From Nostoc linckia FACHB-104 (GTDB taxonomy: Bacteria; Cyanobacteriota; Cyanobacteriia; Cyanobacteriales; Nostocaceae): a DNA stretch of 38,347 nucleotides. Within the stretch, counting starts at the first letter, position 1; the number at the start of each line of letters is the position of its first letter. Positions 14,922 to 25,316 of this stretch are shown in pieces. The notes beneath the pieces were generated by a model. It was not told the origin of the DNA and did not search any database. It saw only the letters and a program-made list of their open reading frames with translations. The position numbers were made by a program, and so were the translations under genes. The stretch lies in contig NZ_JACJQJ010000078.1 in the NCBI RefSeq assembly GCF_014696615.1, positions 1-38,347 of the forward strand, given 5' to 3'.

Positions 14922-15437
14922 ATGAGAGAGAAGATGCGATCGCAACATGAACCACAGGTTTTTTCTGCTGTAATTCAAGATTACAGTATGGCTGGAGAAT
15001 ACCTGATTGCAAACTCTGCGGCGATTTTTTCTCCAACTGCTAAGGGGGAAGTTATCCTCTGGGACAATCTTAAGTTTTTGCAAATTTCACCCTGTAGCTC
15101 ATTTTTCGAGAATGCATACAATGTCAAAAAAGAGACTTATGATGATTGGCTAGTGAGCAATCATCAACCTAGCTTATTGACTCCGTTACTGATTAACGAT
15201 CAACTCACTTTCATTTCTGAACAACAGTGTCAGCAGCTTTGTAATAATTATGATTATCGGTGGTCTGTTTTTTATTGGTTGACTCGACCAGGGTTTTCTG
15301 CAGATTTTTCCCAAGCATTGATTCAAATATACGCCCATTGTCCAGCCGGGCCACCTCAGTATGGCAGTATAGTTTATCTAGAAAGAACAGAAGATGTATG
15401 GCAAGTCAAGTCATCTTTTGGTTTGTATAATCAATAA
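14922..15437 (+). CDS. Hypothetical protein, 171 aa
   Basis: I do not recognise a family. The protein is soluble, acidic to neutral and aromatic-rich, with no signal peptide or membrane segment. It contains PTAKGEVILWDNLKFLQISPC near the centre and ends VYLERTEDVWQVKSSFGLYNQ, which reads like a beta-strand-rich fold. It may start at the ATG at 14922 or at 14934 (MRSQHEP); neither has a strong ribosome site. A strong hairpin lies between it and the convergent GUN4 gene. Codon use resembles its neighbours, so it is likely a real gene. Confidence 0.55.
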   Translation: MREKMRSQHEPQVFSAVIQDYSMAGEYLIANSAAIFSPTAKGEVILWDNLKFLQISPCSSFFENAYNVKKETYDDWLVSNHQPSLLTPLLINDQLTFISEQQCQQLCNNYDYRWSVFYWLTRPGFSADFSQALIQIYAHCPAGPPQYGSIVYLERTEDVWQVKSSFGLYNQ

Positions 15438-15468
15438 TTCCATTAATGCGATCGCCTCACGAACAAAT

Positions 15469-15501
15469 AGATCCCCGACTTTTTGGAAAAGTCGGGGATC
15501 T
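15469..15501. terminator. Strong hairpin between convergent genes
   Basis: A perfect 15-bp stem (AGATCCCCGACTTTT with its complement) and a TGG loop lie between the convergent hypothetical and GUN4 genes. With TTTT/AAAA inside the stem it could act as a bidirectional terminator; the same type of sequence is also a common dispersed cyanobacterial palindrome. Confidence 0.55.
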
Positions 15502-15520
15502 GAACATATCGCATAAAATA

Positions 15521-16009
15521 TTATATTTTACAAGTCTCGAGGCGAGAAAAAATTATTACTTCTATTCCTACACCCCTGCTGAAACACTCACCTATCGGGA
15601 GGTGTCCTCTAGGAGCAGAGGTATTAAAAGTAACTTGCTCGTAATTAATCCAGCTGTTTTCTACTCGCCATCCCACGCGATCGCCAAATTTATTCCAGGC
15701 TTCTTCGTAATACTTACCGTCAGGCTGACCACCAACGTTTAGGTAAATTTCTTTTTGAACACTGAAGCCAAAGATTCCATTGCTATATTTTAGCCATAGG
15801 CGGTCAATGGTGCGGAAGTCAGTACAGGGAAAATTTAACAGTTGGCTTTCGTGTATGTAACCATGTTCTTTAAGCCCTACTGCTTGAAGCATTACCAGAT
15901 AAGTTTCATAATCAGCATCTTTCCAGTTCCCTACTGCTAGCAAATCGCGTAGTTTGCTATAGTCTACACCTCTTCTTGAACTGAGTTTAATGTCTTTTTT
16001 GCCTGCCAT
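15521..16009 (-). CDS. Stand-alone GUN4-domain protein
   Basis: A 162-residue protein that is almost entirely one GUN4 domain, the porphyrin-binding fold that in the true Gun4 stimulates Mg-chelatase. Landmarks are GVDYSKLRDLLAVGNWKDAD (residues 14-33), FPCTDFRTIDRLWLKYSNGIFGFSVQKEIYL (60-90), FGDRVGWR (108-115), APRGHLPIG and the conserved end FSRLETCKI (154-162). It lacks the extra N-terminal helical domain of the chlorophyll-pathway Gun4 (about 230 aa), so it is more likely one of the many GUN4-like sensors of Nostocales. The same domain occurs fused to NACHT at 22515. Tetrapyrrole binding is inferred from the family. Confidence 0.85.
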   Translation of the reverse strand: MAGKKDIKLSSRRGVDYSKLRDLLAVGNWKDADYETYLVMLQAVGLKEHGYIHESQLLNFPCTDFRTIDRLWLKYSNGIFGFSVQKEIYLNVGGQPDGKYYEEAWNKFGDRVGWRVENSWINYEQVTFNTSAPRGHLPIGECFSRGVGIEVIIFSRLETCKI

Positions 16010-16112: not shown

Positions 16113-16970
16113 TTACTTCTCGACAATTTCTTTCTTCTGCTGCGGTACAAATATTCCGTGTCGAGGACTAAATAATAATGCTAATACAAATAATCCCGAG
16201 ACTACTAATACAATTGCTGGGCCTGAGGGTAAGTTATAAAAGTAACTGAGGTACATTCCGCTAATACTAGAAATTACGCCAATAACTGCGCCCAAAATCA
16301 TTACTTGGTTAAGACGTTTAACTAATAAATAGGCGGTAGCACCAGGGGTAATTAAGAGTGAGAGTACGAGAATTACACCTACAGCTTTCATGCTAGCAAC
16401 AATTGTTAAAGCAATCAGCAACATCAATCCAAAGTTCAGCCGATTGACTGGTAAACCTGCAGCTTGTGCGCCTAAAGGGTCGAAGGTGTAAAATAACAGT
16501 TCTTTGTAGAGTAAAACTACCACTAATAGAACAATCGCCGCAATGATAGCGGTGTCTCGCACTTCATCAATAGTTACACCTAGAATATTGCCGAATAAAA
16601 AGTGATTGAGGTCGATTTTGTTGTCTTTTTGAATAACAGTAATTAATGTGATACCAAGGGCAAAGAATGCAGAGAAAACTATGCCCATTGCAGCATCTTC
16701 TTTAATTGGCGATCGCGTTCTAATCAGTGCGATCGCCATTGTACTCACAACGCCGGCAATAAAAGCCCCAACAAAAATATTACCTCCCACCATAAAGGCG
16801 ATCGCTAGTCCTGGCAAAACGGAGTGACTAATCGCATCCCCCAATAAAGCCAATCGTTGTACCATCAAATAGCTACCAACGACTGCACACAACAATCCGA
16901 CTAATATTGCAATCACCAGCGATCGCTGCATAAAGCCATATTGCAATGGCTCAATTAATGCTTGGAACAT
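16113..16970 (-). CDS. Mn/Zn ABC transporter, permease
   Basis: A 285-residue ABC-3 family inner-membrane permease with about eight or nine hydrophobic segments, for example SLVIAILVGLLCAVVGSYLM at the start and AIVLVVSGLFVLALLF near the end. It is the partner of the ATPase at 17115 and of the binding lipoprotein at 18033. The family moves Mn2+ or Zn2+ into the cell. The segment LALLGDAISHSVLPGLAIAF near residue 35 is the conserved coupling region of MntB/ZnuB permeases. The 144-bp gap to the ATPase gene is almost wholly made of heptamer repeats, which would lie inside the operon transcript. Mn versus Zn cannot be settled from this subunit. Confidence 0.88.
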   Translation of the reverse strand: MFQALIEPLQYGFMQRSLVIAILVGLLCAVVGSYLMVQRLALLGDAISHSVLPGLAIAFMVGGNIFVGAFIAGVVSTMAIALIRTRSPIKEDAAMGIVFSAFFALGITLITVIQKDNKIDLNHFLFGNILGVTIDEVRDTAIIAAIVLLVVVLLYKELLFYTFDPLGAQAAGLPVNRLNFGLMLLIALTIVASMKAVGVILVLSLLITPGATAYLLVKRLNQVMILGAVIGVISSISGMYLSYFYNLPSGPAIVLVVSGLFVLALLFSPRHGIFVPQQKKEIVEK

Positions 16971-16971
16971 A

Positions 16972-17112
16972 GTTTGTTATTTGTCATTTGTCGTTTGTCA
17001 TTTGTCATTTGTCGTTTGTCGTTTGTTGTTTGTCATTTGTCATTTGTCGTTTGTCATTTGTTGTTTGTTCAATGACCAATGACCAATGACCAATGACCAA
17101 TGACCAATGACA
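16972..17112. repeat. Long heptamer arrays inside the transporter operon
   Basis: About fourteen units of TTTGTCA/TTTGTCG/TTTGTTG (16976-17070) are followed by five units of AATGACC (17071-17110). They lie between the permease and ATPase genes. Confidence 0.85.
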
Positions 17113-17114
17113 AT

Positions 17115-17942
17115 TTACGCTGCATCAGAAAAGTACATAACTTTCCCACCATAGGCGCGGTTTAAGTTTTCTTCGTTGAGTACTTGCTGCCTTGAACCTG
17201 TGGCAATTAATTCTTGGTTTAATAATATTAAATCATCAAAGTGGGTGATAGATTCGCCTAAGTCGTGGTTGACTACTAAGACGATTTTGCCTGCGTTTGC
17301 GAGTTCATGGAAGACTTCAAAAATTACTGTCTGAGTCTTCTGATCGATACCTACTAATGGTTCATCAAAGCAGAAAATTTCTGCTTGCTGGGCTAAAGCA
17401 CGGGCTAAAAATACTCGCTGCTGCTGTCCTCCAGACAATTCTCCAATGGGGCGATCGCAAAAATTTGTCATCCCCACTCTTTCTAAGGCATTATTTGCTA
17501 CCTGGCGGCTAACTGCAGAAAAACTACGCAACCATCCAGTTTTTTTTACCCGTCCCATCATGACTACATCCCAAACTGTAGCCGGGTAAGTCCAATCAAT
17601 CTGGCTACGCTGGGGTACATAAGCAACTTTCTCTAGTTGCTGCATTAACGGCTTGCTTTGGTATAAAGCATTACCGCTACTTTTTGACACTAAACCCAAA
17701 ATAGCCTTCATTAAAGTACTTTTGCCAGCACCATTAGGGCCAAAAATACCTGTGAGTTTACCTGGTTGAATGATGCAATTAACGTCTCGCAAAGCTTCTT
17801 GTGTGCGGTAGTGTACCCCTAGATGGGAGATACAAATGCCTTCTGTAGATTTCATTTCATGAGTTTGTATAACTTGTGCAGATCTTACCCAAGCTTCTCT
17901 AGGTGATAAGCTATTTTTTTTGTAAAAAGAGACACTTTTCAT
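17115..17942 (-). CDS. Mn/Zn ABC transporter, ATP-binding subunit
   Basis: A 275-residue cytosolic ABC ATPase. Walker A is GPNGAGKST at residues 68-76, the ABC signature is LSGGQQQR, Walker B is IFCFDEPLVGID, and the switch His is in VNHD. VAYVPQRSQIDWTYPATVWDVVMMGR is the Q-loop region typical of MntA/ZnuC-type metal ATPases. The start at 17942 adds about 29 residues before the usual start point; M30 (MKSTEG, at 17855) is an alternative, and neither has a strong ribosome site. It is in one operon with the permease downstream and divergent from the binding-protein gene, a common cyanobacterial arrangement. Confidence 0.9.
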   Translation of the reverse strand: MKSVSFYKKNSLSPREAWVRSAQVIQTHEMKSTEGICISHLGVHYRTQEALRDVNCIIQPGKLTGIFGPNGAGKSTLMKAILGLVSKSSGNALYQSKPLMQQLEKVAYVPQRSQIDWTYPATVWDVVMMGRVKKTGWLRSFSAVSRQVANNALERVGMTNFCDRPIGELSGGQQQRVFLARALAQQAEIFCFDEPLVGIDQKTQTVIFEVFHELANAGKIVLVVNHDLGESITHFDDLILLNQELIATGSRQQVLNEENLNRAYGGKVMYFSDAA

Positions 17943-17950
17943 AACTGTGC

Positions 17951-18000
17951 TTTCATATTTTATTCCTTGAGCTTACTATAAAAATGAGAGAAATATGAAA
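17951..18000. promoter_or_regulatory. Inverted repeat in the divergent metal-transporter promoter
   Basis: TTTCATATTT at 17951-17960 and its exact complement AAATATGAAA at 17991-18000 flank a 30-bp spacer in the 90-bp gap between the divergent ATPase and binding-protein genes. The position suggests a shared control site, or two half-sites for a metal-responsive regulator. It does not match the Zur or Fur consensus known to me. Confidence 0.4.
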
Positions 18001-18032
18001 AAATCTATAGATAGAAGTAATGTTGTAAATAA

Positions 18033-19172
18033 ATGAAGCTAATACTTAAGAGAGAGATGGTAATGGGGCATTGGGTATGGGGCATTGGGGGGATGAGGGA
18101 GGTGAAGGAGATGAGGGGGATGAGGGGGATGAGGGAGAAACACCAAATACCCAATTACCCATTACCCATTCCCCATTCCCCATTCCCCATTCCCCAGTCC
18201 CCAATCCCCATCCCCCACCCCAAACACATTGTTTCGCAGATATGCTTGGCAATACTTCTGCCTTTGGCTTTATTTGGTTGTAGCCAAGGGAATGAAGGTA
18301 ATAGTTCTCAAAGTAATGGCAAACCGCAAGTTGTAGCAACTAGCACAATTATTGCGGATTTAACTGAAGAGATTGGCGGTGATGAAATTCAGGTAGTAGG
18401 AATTCTCAAACCTGGTACAGATCCTCATGTTTATGAACCAGTACCAGCAGATAGCCGAGTGATGGAAAAAGCAAATTTGATTTTGTATAACGGCTACAAC
18501 CTAGAACCTGGGCTGATTAAGTTAATGAATGCTGCGGGTGGACAGGTGAAGCGTTTAGCGGTGGGAGAAGTTGTCAAACCTTTAGAGTTAGATAAAGGTA
18601 AAGGCGAAATCGTGCCCGATCCTCATGTTTGGGGTAGTGCAGAAAATGCGATCGCAATGGTCAATGCCATTCGGGATGTTTTAATTAAGTTATCGCCTGA
18701 AGATCAAAAGGAATTTACTGAGAATGCAACGCAACTTACCAATGAATTAAAGCAGTTGCATAGTTGGATTAATCAGCAAATTCAAACCATTCCCCCAGAT
18801 AAGCGCAAACTCGTCACCACCCATGATGCCTTTCAATATTATGGACAAGCTTATAAAATTGCGATCGCGGGTACACTAATTGGCATCAGCACCGAAGAAC
18901 AACCAAGCGCCCAAACAGTACAACGATTGGTTGAGTCAATCAAGAAAATCGGCGTTAATGCAATTTTTGCGGAAACAACCATTAACCCTGCCTTAATCAA
19001 GACTGTAGCCCAAGAAGCTGGAGTTAAACTAGCCCCACGTCAACTTTTCTCTGACTCTATCGGCGCTAAGGGAAGTGATGGCGATACCTATATCAAAATG
19101 ATGGCAGCGAATACGCGCACAATTGTAGAAGCATTAGGGGGTAGATATACGCCTTTTCAACCCAAAAAATGA
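18033..19172 (+). CDS. Mn/Zn ABC transporter, substrate-binding lipoprotein (MntC/ZnuA type)
   Basis: A 379-residue cluster A-I metal-binding protein. The expected ligands are present: H132 (GTDPHVYEP), H198 (DPHVWG), E314 (FAETTINP) and D341 (SDSIG). The set H-H-E-D and the absence of a His-rich loop favour Mn2+ (MntC) over Zn2+, but this is inference. The lipoprotein signal is ICLAILLPLALFGC with lipid-attached C83. Residues about 9-63 before it are low-complexity (GMRGMRGMR, then PIPHSPFPIPQSPIPIPHP) and are translated from the tandem repeats common between genes here, so a repeat seems to have landed in frame between the basic start MKLILKR and the hydrophobic core. No downstream ATG replaces the 18033 start. 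It is divergent from the ATPase and permease genes. Confidence 0.87.
   Translation: MKLILKREMVMGHWVWGIGGMREVKEMRGMRGMREKHQIPNYPLPIPHSPFPIPQSPIPIPHPKHIVSQICLAILLPLALFGCSQGNEGNSSQSNGKPQVVATSTIIADLTEEIGGDEIQVVGILKPGTDPHVYEPVPADSRVMEKANLILYNGYNLEPGLIKLMNAAGGQVKRLAVGEVVKPLELDKGKGEIVPDPHVWGSAENAIAMVNAIRDVLIKLSPEDQKEFTENATQLTNELKQLHSWINQQIQTIPPDKRKLVTTHDAFQYYGQAYKIAIAGTLIGISTEEQPSAQTVQRLVESIKKIGVNAIFAETTINPALIKTVAQEAGVKLAPRQLFSDSIGAKGSDGDTYIKMMAANTRTIVEALGGRYTPFQPKK
18055..18228. repeat. Tandem repeats inside the binding-lipoprotein reading frame
   Basis: Runs of GGGGCATTGGG and GATGAGG(G) units (18063-18135) are followed by complementary-type runs of CCCATTCCCCATTCC (18150-18228). The two halves are partly complementary (GGGAATGGG-like versus CCCATTCCC) and could form a large hairpin. 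The segment lies between the first codons and the signal-peptide core of the gene. Confidence 0.75.
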
Positions 19173-19444: not shown

Positions 19445-20868
19445 CTACCGTGTATACATAAGTCCACCCAGAGCGAGTTTCCAGCCAAGAAAGATGGATT
19501 CAAATTGTCTTAAACCATGAACAAGGGTAGGCATTCCAGGAGGTCTTTTACAGGTATAACCAGACCAACCACCAAGTCGAGCAATTATCCAAGTAGCCCA
19601 AGGCAAACAACCCCTTGGATAAGGATTTTGCAGTTTTTTGGTATCGCCTTCCACAGAAGTTTGAATTTGAGATAAACAATGCTGCTGCTGTTCACAAAAG
19701 GTCAGCTCGGCAGAAAGTTGAGTATTATCGCGTCCTTCAACCATTTGTAAGGTTCGCACGGCTACGGACAAAGCCAGGATTGTCAGGCGTTGAATAGCGA
19801 TCGCAGACTCTAGTTGAGTCGCTTCTAAATTCAATCCCGCTTTTTTGAGAGTGGCGAAAAGCTGTTCAATCTTCCATCGCCATCCATACCACTGAATCAT
19901 TCGCAGTGCTTGTTCCAAGCAAACAACTTCGTGTGTGGTCAGCAACCGCCAATGAATCGGTTCTTGTCCCGCAGGTGGTTGAACTTCCAGTGCTTCAACA
20001 GCAAAAAGGGTAACGCTAGGAGGATAGCCAAAAACGCTTAATTTATCGGGTCGTTGAATCTCAACTCTTCCACAACGAACAATAAGCATTGCTTCTCTTG
20101 GCATTCGCTTTCGTCGTGGGTCTGCGGGTACGTTAATTATATAAGTACCTTCAATAGGCTGCTGACTCAAGTAGTCAAATAGTGATTGAGACCTTCCTAA
20201 CAATCGACGGTCTTGACAAGCTCGGATTAGCAAATGATTGTTTTTGTTGGGTACGGTTGCAAATTCCTCAAATAAATCCGATTCGCGATCGCCAATATGA
20301 GTTACCATTTTTGCTCCACCCACTTCAAAGCATCGCTGACTACTTTGTGCCGATGCTAACCATTTGTAAGATTCTTTCTCCTCTATTGCTAAATTTTTAT
20401 AGTCTCGCTCATGTTTATCTGCATGATTTATCTCTCGGCTCCACAGTTTTACCGTGCTTAATCCTAGTGGAAACCCACTCTCACCATCTAATACCAGTGT
20501 TGGATGGATATAAAACCCTACATCTGTATTATTCCCTACTACTCCTAATCCTGACAATGACAGCCTACCTGCATGAGACTGTAAGTTAATTTCGCTACTA
20601 TCGCTGATTGCCAATACGTGCCGTTCCGCTACCCGCGCCTGGCAATCATCCGAAAGGCTACGTACTAGCTCTGATAGTGTGACGTTTTCATTCTCCAAAA
20701 ACCGATAATAGCCCATCTGTTCTGCCCAATTTCGACTTATTTGCCGGATATTTATCGATTGATGCTGACGAATCGCCTCATACAATGCTGCCCCCTTTTT
20801 ATCAACCTGGGGTCTCCAAATGCCGTTCCTGGTATCGTCGCAGCGTGAATTAAGATGGGATTATCCAT
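19445..20868 (-). pseudogene. IS4-family (Tn5-like) transposase, frame broken near the start
   Basis: The main frame (446 residues from a TTG at 20785) has the DDE catalytic core: D62 (AISDSSEI), D166 (THIGDRESD) and E307, with a perfect YREK signature Y300-x2-R303-x3-E307-x6-K314 (QWYGWRWKIEQLFATLK). The C-terminal WIIARLGGWSGY...RPPG resembles Tn5 transposase. The true N-terminus lies in another frame: the ATG at 20868 gives MDNPILIHAATIPGTAFGDP then RLIKRG, the conserved N-terminal motif of this family. The two frames join if one base is added, or one is re-read, in the AAAAAGGGGG run (minus strand, 20791-20800). The restored protein is about 472 residues, matching Tn5 (476). It is either a one-base deletion, a -1 frameshift site, or a homopolymer sequencing error. 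Confidence 0.85.
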
Positions 20869-21764: not shown

Positions 21765-22000
21765 GCGGAAAACACCAAAATGAGTGCGCGATTTACCGAA
21801 ATGAGCAGGCGTTAAGGCTTTTTGAGAACTCGTTAAGGCTTTTTAGCTGCGGAAAACACTAAAACGAGTGCGCGATTTACTAAAACAAGCAGGCGTTAAG
21901 GCTTTTTGAGAACTCGTTAAGGCTTTTCGCTTGCGTAAAACACTAAAATGAGAAGGCGTTAAGGCTTTTTAAGAACTCGTTAAGGCTTTTTGAGTAGGTG
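21765..22000. repeat. 84-bp tandem repeat, three units
   Basis: Units start at 21765, 21849 and 21933 (exact 84-bp period, GCGGAAAACAC.. or GCGTAAAACAC..). Units one and two are full; the third lacks about 20 bp. Each unit contains CGTTAAGGCTTTTT twice, about 21 bp apart. Stop codons interrupt all frames across the array, so it is not a repeat protein. Confidence 0.85.
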
Positions 22001-22116
22001 AAATGGCTTTTTGCCTACTAAAATCAGCTTTATGTATTTTTTAATTGAAGAATCGCCTTCACTAATTGCCCAAATGTAAAGTTGAGGCTAAATGCGCTGC
22101 GATCGCTCTATTTACC

Positions 22117-22199
22117 GTCATTGCGAGCGTAATGAAATGAAGCGAAGCAATCGCAATGGCTAGGATTGCTTCATTCCGCTGCGCTCCATTCGCAATGAC
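22117..22199. repeat. Long imperfect hairpin repeat (CATTGCGAGCG type)
   Basis: It begins CATTGCGAGCG and ends CCATTCGCAATG, with inner arms GAAGCGAAGCAATC and GATTGCTTC. This is a dispersed palindromic repeat of the cyanobacterial intergenic kind. Confidence 0.75.
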
Positions 22200-22253
22200 A
22201 TTAGACCTGTCAAGTTGCGGAGAAATTTTTGGGGAAGTCGCTTTTTTCCTTCG

Positions 22254-22421
22254 ATGATGAAGGGTGGAAAGGCTAAAAAGTCTTCACCTGGGCAAATGAG
22301 TCTACCTTGGGATAAGCAGAGAGTGACGGAATCTACTGAGGTGCATGAGGTAGCAGAAAAATTTATTCACGCAAATCGCTATCAGCCAACAGTGCCAGGT
22401 ATCGGATTTATGAAATGTTGA
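22254..22421 (+). CDS. Possible small protein of about 55 aa, unassigned
   Basis: An ATG at 22254 (with another at 22257) opens a frame encoding about 55 residues, including GGKAKKSSPGQMSLPWDKQ and EVHEVAEKFIHANRYQP. The composition looks protein-like rather than repeat-derived, but no family is recognised and no clear ribosome site is present. It could be the remnant of a longer gene. Confidence 0.25.
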   Translation: MMKGGKAKKSSPGQMSLPWDKQRVTESTEVHEVAEKFIHANRYQPTVPGIGFMKC

Positions 22422-22480
22422 TTATTGCGTGGAAAAGGAGGCTGTGATAAATATTTACAAACTTCTGAAAGCTTTATATG

Positions 22481-22513
22481 TTACATTTTACAAGTCTCGA
22501 CGCGAGAGAAGAG
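22481..22513 (-). pseudogene. Out-of-frame GUN4 C-terminal motif beyond the NACHT-GUN4 stop
   Basis: Just after the TGA of the NACHT-GUN4 gene, the next frame reads LFSRVETCKM and then TAA. This is the normal end of GUN4 domains (the stand-alone protein at 15521 ends FSRLETCKI), and the DNA is nearly identical to that end. A 1-nt insertion or 2-nt deletion between about 22515 and 22531 would account for it. Confidence 0.75.
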
Positions 22514-22514
22514 A

Positions 22515-25316
22515 TCAGCGAGTGTTCGTCATCGAATAAATAAGGTCATAGGGCCTAAATTTCAGATAAAACTGGACTACCCAGGGTAAGTGTCCCCTAG
22601 TGGCAAATGTATTATATTTTACTTCGCTATATCTAATCCAGTTTCCTTCCACTCTCCACTCCACGCGATCGCCGAAGCGTTCGCAAGCTTCGTATAATTC
22701 GTCATCTTCATCCCTCACTCTACCACCAAAACGAGCATATATCGATTTGAAGGGGGCAAGAACTTTCCATAAAGGTGAACTTGTTCGACTTCCTTCTAAG
22801 ATTCCACCCTCTTCGAGATAAATTTCTTTCTGCACGCTAAACCCAAAGCGTCCATTGCTGTAATCGACCCATAATTTATCAATAATTCTCAAGTCTTCAC
22901 AGGGAAATTTTGGAATGTCTTCTAGTCCCAAATAGCCTTGTTTTTCCCGTCCTGCTACTTCTCGCATCACTTTTAGTGTTTCCTCATCAGCTTTTTTCCA
23001 CATACCTGCTGCTAGGCAGTAAGCAAGCTGATGATATTTTTCGGGTATGCGAAACCGAACTAGGCGGAATGTGTCTGTTGAGGTTTCCCGTTTATAACAG
23101 ATTCCTGCTTCACCAAATCGTTCTCTCGTTCTCTGACTCAACCAGGCACAAAATTCATTTCCTTGTGCAAAGTCAATTTCACCAGGGTTGATTTCCAACA
23201 TTAGATCGCTGTTGCTTGGCTTGGTTGTCTCCAAGAGAAACAATCGATATTCAGCCTCAGTAATCTCAGCATCATCCACCACTTGTCCTGCCCAAATTTT
23301 ATCACCTGCTTCTGTTATGGCGATTGCAGGTTGGTCTTCTTTGTCTGAACTCCCGACAAAACAATCTTCGTTGAGGTGGTATAGCCGTTTTTCTAATTGC
23401 ACTGATGCTGCTAGCTTAAAAACTTCCACATCATCGGACTTTAACCCCTGTTCTACCTTGTTTAGTAGTTCCTGCTCTTTATCTGGGCTAACTCTGAGTT
23501 TGTTCTGCAAACATTCGTAAGCAAGGGTGAGGGTAGCTACTGTTGGTTTTTTCAATGCCGCATCAATCAGTTTATCTACTTTCACCTGACCTGCGTAGAA
23601 CAAAATGGTTTGTCTCCACCAATCCAGATGTTTTTCATCTTTGGTAAAAACTGCTAATACATCAGGCTCATTTTCTGCCTTTGTCAGTTCAACCGCCGTT
23701 AAATACTCCTGAAAGGTGCGATGGGTAAATTCATAGAGTTTTTCTTGTTTGCGATCGCTCAACAGTTCTCGCACACCAATATCATCTCTTTCGATAAAAT
23801 CTTGTGGTTTAAACTCTCTTCCCGCCTCAACCATCTGAGCTAGTTCTGCTTGAAGAAAGTCTTTTGCTAGAAAAATATTACTGTCCTGATTTCTCTGATC
23901 TAGCGTAAACTGAAGTACTTGGCGTTTCGTCATCTCTAGTGCGAGTGCTTGTAACGCTTCTTGCTTTTGCTCTGGCTTGAGTGGGTATCGGGTACTTCCA
24001 GAAGCAGATTGTCGTCCTTGAAGAAGGACATCACATACTTGCTTATAAAGTCCTGTTCTGGTTGGCGAAAGGCTTGTTTTCTGCTTATAAGTGTTAATAA
24101 TTAATGCCAGCAACAGGGGATTTGTTGCCATCAAGCGCAGGGAAGGAACTGCATCAATTTGCCGCACTAACTCATTTCTTTTAGACTCAGCAATTTTCTT
24201 CAGTTGCTTTTGTGATTGTCCTCCAGAATTTTTACGTTTTTCTAGATTAAAATACCAGTTGAAAAGAAAAGTATTGCGCTGTTCTGTGGTGAATGAACGC
24301 ACAAAATAAGCTGGGGTATCTGGTAGAGGAGCTTGATTGTAAGCTTGTGGGCGTGATGTCAGAATGAACGGTAATCTATGCTGATAATGTTGGAGTTGCT
24401 GAGAAACCCAAGCGCTTACCTGCTGGCGCTGCTCATCATCGGCAATTTCATCGAGTCCATCTAACATCACCAAACACTTGCCGTTTTTCAGCTGCTTGTT
24501 AAACCACTGCTGAATTTTTTCTGATTCATCTCCCATTGCCTTGGCAATTACTTGCGCTAGCGAGGGTTTATCATCTACAACAATGGCGGAAGTAACATCT
24601 CTCAACCTCAACAAAACAGGAATAAGTTGAGGCAAACCCCGATACAATTTTGATTGTTTTCGCAGAGCAAACAGCAGTGTTATATGCCTTAAAAGTGTGG
24701 TTTTTCCTGAACCAGGTGCCCCTAAAATTACCAGTCTTCGCCACGCCGATTTTTGTTTCGTAATCTTTTTCAGCAAACTACCAATTTCACTTTCTTGCTG
24801 AATTGCAATGCTTCTAGAAGCTGCTGTTTCCTCATTTTGCTCTGGCTCAGTTTCATCACCAGTAGTCAAATCTTGAGGGTTATACACTGGCGTTTCGGAA
24901 TTAAAGCCCAAGGGCACAAACACATTTTCCAAATCCAGTCCTTCGCCACTAAATCCGCGTCCCTGGTATTCTTTACATTCAGCCGTTAATCTCGCAAGAT
25001 AATCTGCCCCAAACCTGTCTGTGGCTGTTGTCCACCATTTGGGAATTTGAGTAGCAAGTAACCAATCCAAAAATTTATCGAAATAGGGAAGCAGCTTGCT
25101 GCCAATTCTAATGATGAGTGCAATAACAAAGGTGATTCCTAGAAAGATAGCAAACTCTTTCCAGCGGGCATTTTTGGCATGATCAGCCGCAATAGCCACA
25201 AAAATCCCTGGTACACCCCACCCGACTAATTTGTTATCTAAAATCTTTTGTACAGATTCCCACCAAGCGGGTTGATTATCTTGGCTTTGAGTCACGTCGC
25301 TTCGCTCCGAATTCAA
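22515..25316 (-). CDS. Membrane-anchored NACHT NTPase with C-terminal GUN4 domain
   Basis: A 933-residue STAND-type protein. Residues about 54-77 form a membrane segment (FAIFLGITFVIALIIRIGSKLL), perhaps with a shorter one before it (about 33-44). The NACHT NTPase has Walker A GAPGSGKTT (199-207), Walker B LVMLDGLDE (282-290) and a sensor-like ILTSRP (318-323), followed by helical domains to about residue 650. A short stretch (ITEAEYRLFLLETTK, then FCAWLSQRTRERF) resembles a degenerate formylglycine-enzyme-like segment. Residues about 757-933 are a GUN4 domain with an insertion (PLWKVLAPFKSIYARFGGRV). Known NACHT proteins oligomerise on sensing a ligand, and several bacterial ones are antiphage; here GUN4 is the likely sensor. 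The end departs from the family after RGHLP: the canonical terminal motif lies past the stop in another frame (22481-22513). Confidence 0.85.
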   Translation of the reverse strand: MNSERSDVTQSQDNQPAWWESVQKILDNKLVGWGVPGIFVAIAADHAKNARWKEFAIFLGITFVIALIIRIGSKLLPYFDKFLDWLLATQIPKWWTTATDRFGADYLARLTAECKEYQGRGFSGEGLDLENVFVPLGFNSETPVYNPQDLTTGDETEPEQNEETAASRSIAIQQESEIGSLLKKITKQKSAWRRLVILGAPGSGKTTLLRHITLLFALRKQSKLYRGLPQLIPVLLRLRDVTSAIVVDDKPSLAQVIAKAMGDESEKIQQWFNKQLKNGKCLVMLDGLDEIADDEQRQQVSAWVSQQLQHYQHRLPFILTSRPQAYNQAPLPDTPAYFVRSFTTEQRNTFLFNWYFNLEKRKNSGGQSQKQLKKIAESKRNELVRQIDAVPSLRLMATNPLLLALIINTYKQKTSLSPTRTGLYKQVCDVLLQGRQSASGSTRYPLKPEQKQEALQALALEMTKRQVLQFTLDQRNQDSNIFLAKDFLQAELAQMVEAGREFKPQDFIERDDIGVRELLSDRKQEKLYEFTHRTFQEYLTAVELTKAENEPDVLAVFTKDEKHLDWWRQTILFYAGQVKVDKLIDAALKKPTVATLTLAYECLQNKLRVSPDKEQELLNKVEQGLKSDDVEVFKLAASVQLEKRLYHLNEDCFVGSSDKEDQPAIAITEAGDKIWAGQVVDDAEITEAEYRLFLLETTKPSNSDLMLEINPGEIDFAQGNEFCAWLSQRTRERFGEAGICYKRETSTDTFRLVRFRIPEKYHQLAYCLAAGMWKKADEETLKVMREVAGREKQGYLGLEDIPKFPCEDLRIIDKLWVDYSNGRFGFSVQKEIYLEEGGILEGSRTSSPLWKVLAPFKSIYARFGGRVRDEDDELYEACERFGDRVEWRVEGNWIRYSEVKYNTFATRGHLPWVVQFYLKFRPYDLIYSMTNTR

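Follow-up and report, generated by a model that had tools for sequence, protein, structure and literature searches.

The DNA analysed here, referred to as the window, is a stretch of 38,347 nt from Nostoc linckia FACHB-104 (contig NZ_JACJQJ010000078.1), and on its minus strand (22515..25316) it carries a gene for a protein in which a NACHT NTPase domain is followed by what looks like the remnant of an FGE-sulfatase domain and by a C-terminal GUN4 domain. In this protein and its relatives the last segment of GUN4 has been replaced en bloc by a G/T-rich stretch of variable length, here termed the tail, which is unrelated in most pairs; the tail runs into a conserved 3' element, past which a transposase gene faces the GUN4 gene. 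In many cyanobacteria the GUN4 gene stands in a convergent two-gene cassette with a gene for a Y1 (HUH) RAYT-like transposase whose catalytic residues are conserved. The evidence for this pattern of hypervariable junction, three-frame exit element and transposase partner is strong, and it suggests that bacteria diversify immune-like receptors in a way not described before. Taken as a whole, the best explanation, and one we consider rather probable, would be that NACHT, caspase, kinase and TIR receptors undergo junctional diversification linked to a transposase.

The hypervariable tail and the 3' element

The GUN4 domain of the window protein extends to a conserved GHLP motif (residues 759–911; 22584..23042, minus strand). 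The tail, WVVQFYLKFRPYDLIYSMTNTR, makes up residues 912–933 (22518..22583, minus strand), and its TGA stop codon (22515–22517) lies directly before the 3' element (22454..22514, minus strand), which consists of a pyrimidine tract, TCTCTCGCGTCGAGACTTGTAAAATGTAACAT and a conserved right part. The listed homologues mostly differ in their endings after GHLP, and many share a terminal LFSRVETCKL, SSLASRLVNCNI or LLSRRDL; these are the three reading frames of a single conserved DNA element 3' of the gene, which supplies one stop codon in each frame. With up to three mismatches allowed, the element was found in 117 of the 192 genomes of the family, and a reversed control pattern in none. Among 29 element loci (L070–L098), 24 have GUN4 directly upstream by profile, two (L072 and L082) have a truncated GUN4 recognised by eye, and three (L074, L085 and L088, the last at a contig end) have none. 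The N. linckia genome itself holds 11 GUN4 genes with unlike N-termini, five of which have the element at no more than three mismatches. At another locus (L121, G057:C216) three tandem GUN4 domains share one 898-codon frame, followed by a single element with five mismatches.

The tail was defined as the DNA from the GHLP codons to the conserved element of about 60 nt, bounded on the left by the CC of the proline codon. Allowing up to five mismatches gave 137 distinct elements, corresponding to 124 units with an upstream GUN4 and 13 without a GUN4 match; removal of one spurious unit left 123, seven of which have inexact lengths because the proline codon was not recognised, and 116 of which are well delimited. 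The frame is open from GUN4 into the element in 119 of the 123 units, and in 114 of the well-delimited 116. Tail lengths in the latter range from 20 to 191 nt and are distributed 33/50/31 modulo 3, the element being entered in all three frames. Stop codons are nearly absent from the frame used (3 of 2659 codons in the 116 tails, versus 141 of 2625 and 157 of 2575 in frames 1 and 2; 6 of 2895 versus 152 of 2859 and 167 of 2805 across all 123), which argues that the tail is translated and selected to remain open, its sequence and exit frame being free.

The coding strand of the 119 open tails has a composition of G.346, T.328, A.186 and C.141, with little difference between the three codon positions and without codon structure, and across 167 distinct tails the composition is flat along the length. 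Over the first 16 residues of the 72 longer tails, pairwise identity is.073, which is the shuffled level; in the equivalent stretch of 31 canonical Gun4 genes it is.869. The boundary with the element is sharp: conservation does not exceed 0.23 bits from −12 to −6, rises to about 0.5 at positions −5 and −4 and to 1.2 to 1.8 at −3 to −1, and stays mostly high to about +55, though the search pattern covered positions 0 to 31 only.

Tail turnover between close relatives

Synteny between the window and genome G122 extends for about 13 kb, with blocks of 93.7–96.3% identity and two short ones of 88.7 and 92.7%, and the tail region of the NACHT–GUN4 gene (22515–22608) fails to align between them. Other stretches unaligned to G122 are 15233–15504, which lies partly in a 171-codon open reading frame without a known domain, an IS4 insertion, 22157–22391 (a transposase remnant) and short pieces. 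Among seven other genomes of the window's genus, one has an orthologue. In the same comparison, a standalone GUN4 gene in the window (15521..16009, minus strand; PF05419, E 3e-40), with its own 3' element at four mismatches (15518..15549, minus strand), retains its tail, which is 98% identical to that of L111 in the sister genome.

Tail identity among close relatives is bimodal rather than graded: among 154 pairs with an upstream flank identity of at least.85, three share their tail (98–100%) and 151 lie within.12 of the shuffled level. Of four protein pairs with close GUN4 ends, P0010 and P0011 have unrelated tails, P0034 and P0036 unlike ones, and the remaining two pairs share theirs. Plasmid NZ_CP060823.1 of Cylindrospermopsis curvispora holds three cassettes with an identical left flank of 24 nt, nearly identical element regions and transposase genes that differ at 10–18 of 762 positions, and the tails between them, of 34, 40 and 83 nt, are unrelated; for two of these (L303 and L304) the element and transposase side is 99.1% identical over 1056 nt. 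In two genomes of the genus of C. curvispora, GUN4 precedes eight of nine element sites, each with its own tail. Tail replacement has been recent in some lineages. In two groups of paralogues (L003/L059/L064 and L053/L066) the tails are conserved between species and the element is degenerate or not found, so that these tails are apparently frozen.

A convergent transposase as recurrent partner

In the window only the C-terminal remnant of the convergent transposase is left (22203..22418, plus strand; tblastn match to residues 185–297 of 297, 44% identity, E 1e-21), and the window copy is probably no longer diversified in cis, because the local transposase has decayed. Other genomes have the gene intact. 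Its product is a Y1 (IS200-like, HUH) transposase (PF01797, E 3e-19), and the structure model (predicted local distance difference test score, pLDDT, of 64, with a confident core) has as its first PDB match 4er8, a REP-associated tyrosine transposase with a REP hairpin (E 3e-6). Alignments of 13 and of 29 transposases show no variation in the HUH histidines or in the catalytic tyrosine, and the motif set NHVH, WE and YIHANP is closest, but not equal, to that given for subclass 2.1 by Quentin (2018; PMC6006769).

The transposase (E ≤ 1e-15) occurs in 90 of the 192 genomes. For 30 loci returned, a convergent GUN4 was present in 25, with the element in between (at most seven mismatches) in 23 of those. 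A search of named genomes by transposase alone gave 183 loci, and among the best 80 of these a convergent GUN4 lies within 1.5 kb in 66; 24 of the 80 overlap the earlier set, and 47 of the 56 new loci have the convergent GUN4. Nine of the 14 loci without one have less than 220 nt of contig left, and five (L235, L239, L266, L270 and L298) are true exceptions within the 1.5 kb. The element is recognisable in 56 of the 66 cassettes, where the tails have the same bias and 51 are open. The 66 cassettes include ones from Nostocales, Leptolyngbya-like genera, Trichodesmium, Microcystis, Xenococcus and Spirulina, and third-party annotation shows the identical pair of transposase and GUN4 protein. No third gene recurs within 4 kb of the cassettes: a far-side gene reaches at most six of the 80 loci, and on the GUN4 side the GUN4 cluster covers 62 loci, followed by an opposite-strand open reading frame (nine loci) whose representative overlaps GUN4.

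In 49 of the 66 cassette GUN4 proteins the partner domains are mostly conflict-type modules, among them NACHT (13), AAA_35 (8), caspase (8), kinase (7), TIR_2 (3), KAP (2), trypsin (2), CHAT (2) and FGE (2). Fusions of GUN4 with kinase, caspase, TIR and STAND modules have been reported before (PMC7159879, PMC8195603, PMC2853523). One plasmid cassette (L304, NZ_CP060823.1 75500–84500) adjoins a gene for a MoxR family ATPase, an arrangement also seen in ternary conflict systems from the literature. At a contig end of Brasilonema sp. UFV-L1 (L088/L106/L124/L222), an intact transposase gene is accompanied by a tail region with a 54-nt match to that gene, and the contig ends there.

A proposed mechanism and the evidence against it

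We hypothesize that the window protein is an NLR-like receptor in which GUN4 would act as the scaffold for a diversified C-terminal peptide. The transposase, or repair started by it, would cut single-stranded DNA at the element, and the gap would then be filled by largely untemplated synthesis, giving junction-like diversity; the transposase might act in trans as well, on GUN4 genes that lack a neighbouring transposase. The random tail would form a recognition surface, and binding to it would release the NACHT, caspase, kinase or TIR part and so lead to defence or cell death. The transposase probably does make the tails, if far from certainly so, and it is about an even guess that the tails recognise invaders. 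The chances also seem balanced for the joint proposition that in cyanobacteria a domesticated Y1 single-strand transposase and a three-frame exit signal attach fresh, largely untemplated peptides to GUN4-ended immune receptors, which would be a bacterial counterpart of junctional diversification.

Several observations weigh against this hypothesis. Constant turnover is at odds with the three orthologous pairs that keep their tails, with the two close protein pairs, out of four, that share theirs, and with the two paralogue groups whose tails are frozen. Both catalytic motifs are present in 70 of 80 named transposase matches, 75 of the 80 are stop-free, and the transposase of the N. linckia genome has an internal stop. 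No polymerase partner was found. Across the 192 genomes, 64 of the 117 that have the element and 26 of the 75 that lack it carry the transposase (odds ratio 2.28, p.008), a link that is significant but weak and that leaves 53 element genomes without a transposase at E ≤ 1e-15. Lastly, the element showed no covariation beyond shuffles, so that REP-like recognition is unproven and the transposase may be a hitch-hiker. An alignment (A1) of 62 of the 79 non-redundant elements plus that of the window gave no consensus structure, and the structure as a whole did not exceed shuffles; a possible hairpin of five pairs is paired in 93% of cells, with zero compensatory changes. In a hairpin at the left boundary, GAGG-ACA-CCTC, the most variable column pair falls below the shuffled value (25 of 119 versus 29.5), and three other pairs, which equal the highest value from 1000 shuffles, show scarcely any variation and are constrained by codons.

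The tails could accordingly be real and yet be made by some other host process, the Y1 transposase being a passenger that targets the element. We regard this as possible but rather unlikely. Besides the element genomes without a transposase and the lack of conserved structure in the element, it would account for the similar composition of tails without an adjacent transposase match (85 units) and with one (38 units). It accounts poorly for a transposase that stands beside GUN4 in one fixed orientation at 66 of the best 80 loci, has invariant catalytic residues in the aligned sequences and is joined by no other recurrent neighbour. It also accounts poorly for the way element type tracks transposase clade. 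In the genus of C. curvispora (two genomes), the transposase shares about 57% identity with the query over residues 1–288 and 72% over 1–209; neither genome has the usual element, and the two hold seven and two copies of a diverged element that is absent from five genomes of the usual type. In the genomes searched, element type therefore follows transposase clade, as recognition would predict, though linked inheritance could contribute to the match.

GUN4 as scaffold or as tetrapyrrole sensor

An earlier note on this DNA had proposed a triggered switch with a C-terminal sensor that responds to a tetrapyrrole. The switch fits the domains and the NLR-like fold of the protein; the tetrapyrrole part is unsupported, as the tail stands in place of the segment that holds Arg-214. 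In canonical Gun4 proteins GHLP is followed by LSNQLRG (31 of the 31 top-scoring genes), in the form L(S/L)NQLRGVRV, and this segment contains Arg-214 of the Syn protein (numbering of chain 1y6i). Its Arabidopsis equivalent, Arg-211, is needed for full porphyrin affinity, and the two residues are equated in the same paper (PMC8967248). The window protein lacks the segment, and none of 123 variable tails contains the motif LRG.[RQ]. With the tail in its place, the GUN4 domain of this family is more likely to be a scaffold holding a variable peptide close to the former ligand cleft than a sensor of a fixed tetrapyrrole. The porphyrin-sensor reading, which has in its favour the GUN4 fold and profile as well as the tetrapyrrole-sensor role in conflict systems proposed by Kaur (2020; PMC7159879, in part), is thereby weakened, and although porphyrin might still be bound without the Arg-214 segment, we think a tetrapyrrole-responsive NACHT switch improbable.

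Origin of the tail sequences

If the tails were not newly made, they might derive from other GUN4 genes by exchange, or from genomic or phage DNA by capture. Exchange between genes does occur, since two different proteins, P0008 and P0035 (80% and 46% identical to the window protein), have a tail and GUN4 end in common. In addition, a stretch of 12 nt or more from the adjoining left flank recurs inside 6 of 119 tails (.13 expected), with the GHLP codons included in three of the six, and three tails have long self-repeats (.27 expected), which suggests that slippage or copying at the site adds to sequence that is otherwise largely new. As a general source, however, swapping or capture is quite improbable: only 13 of 13,861 pairs among the 167 distinct tails share a 14-mer, and the tails of the window and of L303 have no second copy in their own genomes (next matches at E.57 and 1.9). 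Random open pieces of the window of equal lengths have G.214 and C.219, and the bias of the tails (G.35, C.14) is thus not that of genomic DNA captured in random orientation. Three tail words were absent from viral contigs, and a phage or genomic origin was rejected because the pieces searched gave no match. The viral contigs likewise yielded neither the element word nor any relative of the transposase.

An unconstrained C-terminus that drifts neutrally by ordinary mutation, with the element as a 3' signal such as a terminator, would accommodate the tolerance of three reading frames and the stops that the element provides in all of them; it is very improbable given the bimodal identities, the sharp boundary, the strand-biased composition, the 99.1% identical duplicates with unrelated tails and the nearly stop-free frame in use. 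Least probable of all is a diversity-generating retroelement (DGR) with reverse transcriptase and template repeat, since tail lengths and frames vary, the genome holds no template copy of the window tail, its three reverse transcriptase (RVT_1) genes lie on other contigs than the GUN4 genes and GUN4 is the sole gene recurring within 4 kb of the cassettes, even though cyanobacterial DGRs are described, in part of the literature, as diversifying receptors with like domains (PMC7517822, PMC10907252).

Relation to known systems

The cassette shares with V(D)J recombination a transposase, a conserved signal and a random junction; in V(D)J recombination, a domesticated transposase acts at a conserved signal and leaves junctional sequence of random length and content. 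The cassette, as a putative diversifying system, differs in that a single receptor end is varied, all three frames are tolerated and the enzyme has a different fold. Bacteria are known to diversify receptors in a targeted way through retroelements (DGRs), and these alter adenines and leave the length as it was. In the cassettes, entire segments, random in length, are exchanged at one fixed site next to a transposase-like gene that is widespread in cyanobacteria. As here, the DGR-driven hypervariation reported in the sections concerned of PMC10907252 and PMC7517822 affects the C-termini of NACHT, TIR, kinase and caspase receptors in multicellular bacteria. Unlike in DGRs, no reverse transcriptase or template repeat was found with the cassettes, length and frame vary, the tails are G/T-rich with no donor found, GUN4 takes the place of the C-type lectin, and the associated gene is one for a Y1 transposase. 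Among published proposals, the closest holds that the C-type lectins which DGRs diversify on NACHT proteins act as antigen sensors; GUN4 is not mentioned in that part of the report (PMC10907252).

With RAYTs and the class 2 domesticated transposases of the TnpA-Y1 family, the cassette protein shares the HUH and tyrosine motifs, the RAYT fold (4er8) and an adjacent short element, as far as these are set out in the relevant parts of PMC6006769 and PMC3733652; unlike RAYTs, it has a recurrent partner gene, GUN4, with the element at the 3' end of that gene and no covarying palindrome. The published GUN4 fusions of conflict systems and orthocaspases show the same combinations with caspase, kinase, TIR and STAND modules, and in the sections that concern them GUN4 is treated as a tetrapyrrole-binding or signalling domain, with no mention of tail, element or transposase (PMC7159879, PMC8195603, PMC2853523). 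A description of the tails, the element or the cassette was not found in the literature searched, as far as the portions covered go, with subscription papers and preprints outside the scope. If transposase-linked diversification is true, it would provide a concrete function for RAYTs, whose role is unsettled; NLR-like receptors would have gained junctional diversity with the help of a transposase independently of animals, and many of the proteins now labelled as tetrapyrrole sensors because of GUN4 may be receptors that display a peptide.

Architecture of the window protein

The gene has 933 codons from TTG, but its database copy (P0001) has 926 amino acids, so that the probable start is the GTG at 25295. 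The earlier note had described a NACHT NTPase with a complete P-loop, a membrane segment and fusion to GUN4; the NACHT domain, the P-loop and the fusion are confirmed, and the membrane segment has a candidate. The NACHT domain occupies residues 193–354 (24255..24740, minus strand; PF05729, E 1.6e-16, 61 bits against a curated cut-off of 26.7), with both Walker A (GAPGSGKTT) and Walker B (LVMLDGLDE) present. A possible membrane segment corresponds to a hydrophobic helix at residues 51–79 (25080..25166, minus strand), the single clearly hydrophobic stretch of the protein by hydropathy: 19-residue windows starting at 51–59 and 61 exceed 1.6, another at 389 reaches 1.61, and the structure model has a helix at 52–99. 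The GUN4 profile (PF05419, E 1.4e-36) matches residues 759–915, far above the Pfam cut-off. In the structure model (pLDDT 78 overall, below 50 at 915–933) the best PDB matches are NLRC4 (4kxf, E 5e-11), NLRP3 and NOD2, and the GUN4 fold of the C-terminal region, which the earlier note had named as a test beforehand, was recovered as a match to Gun4 1z3y (rank 47, E 1.5e-5). The lower bound given there, 22481, extends beyond the stop codon into the 3' element, and the FGE-like remnant, the tail from residue 912 and the element itself had escaped it.

The NACHT–GUN4 fusion is not a chance one and is ordinary for cyanobacteria. A homology search gave 379 homologues at E ≤ 1e-3 among 7997 candidates scored, and in 103 of the 120 listed both Pfam domains are present (a precomputed column, counted by eye), which makes the fusion a known kind of architecture. 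Several listed homologues also match FGE (PF03781), and although a Pfam search of the window protein itself gave no such match, the family alignment places their FGE segment at window residues ~665–756 (23049..23324, minus strand), between NACHT and GUN4, so that this segment looks like an FGE-sulfatase (C-type-lectin) remnant. Seven longer proteins (P0086, P0073, P0090–P0093 and P0118) have NACHT, GUN4 and FGE in the Pfam column and an ending that resembles a DGR variable region (RGGSW...GFRVV); in P0086 this FGE end comes after GUN4. DGR-type and tail-type variation may thus both exist within the NACHT–GUN4–FGE protein family. Two named defence proteins were rejected as identities for the window protein: PADLOC PD-T4-6, of which it fits only model positions 310–426 of 450, over the GUN4 part, and the NACHT antiphage protein EruA (NF058535), a partial match of 40.3 bits over residues 393–461, far below the curated cut-off of 1000 bits.

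Surroundings in the window

Between the two GUN4 genes of the window lie genes for a Mn/Zn-type metal ABC transporter (16113–19172). An IS4-family transposase (19445–20785, E 1e-104) represents an insertion that looks recent, because the syntenic region of G122 does not align there. Short repeats of the type AAAAAGCCTTAACGAGTTCTC occupy 21840–22080, between the remnant of the convergent transposase and the next gene.

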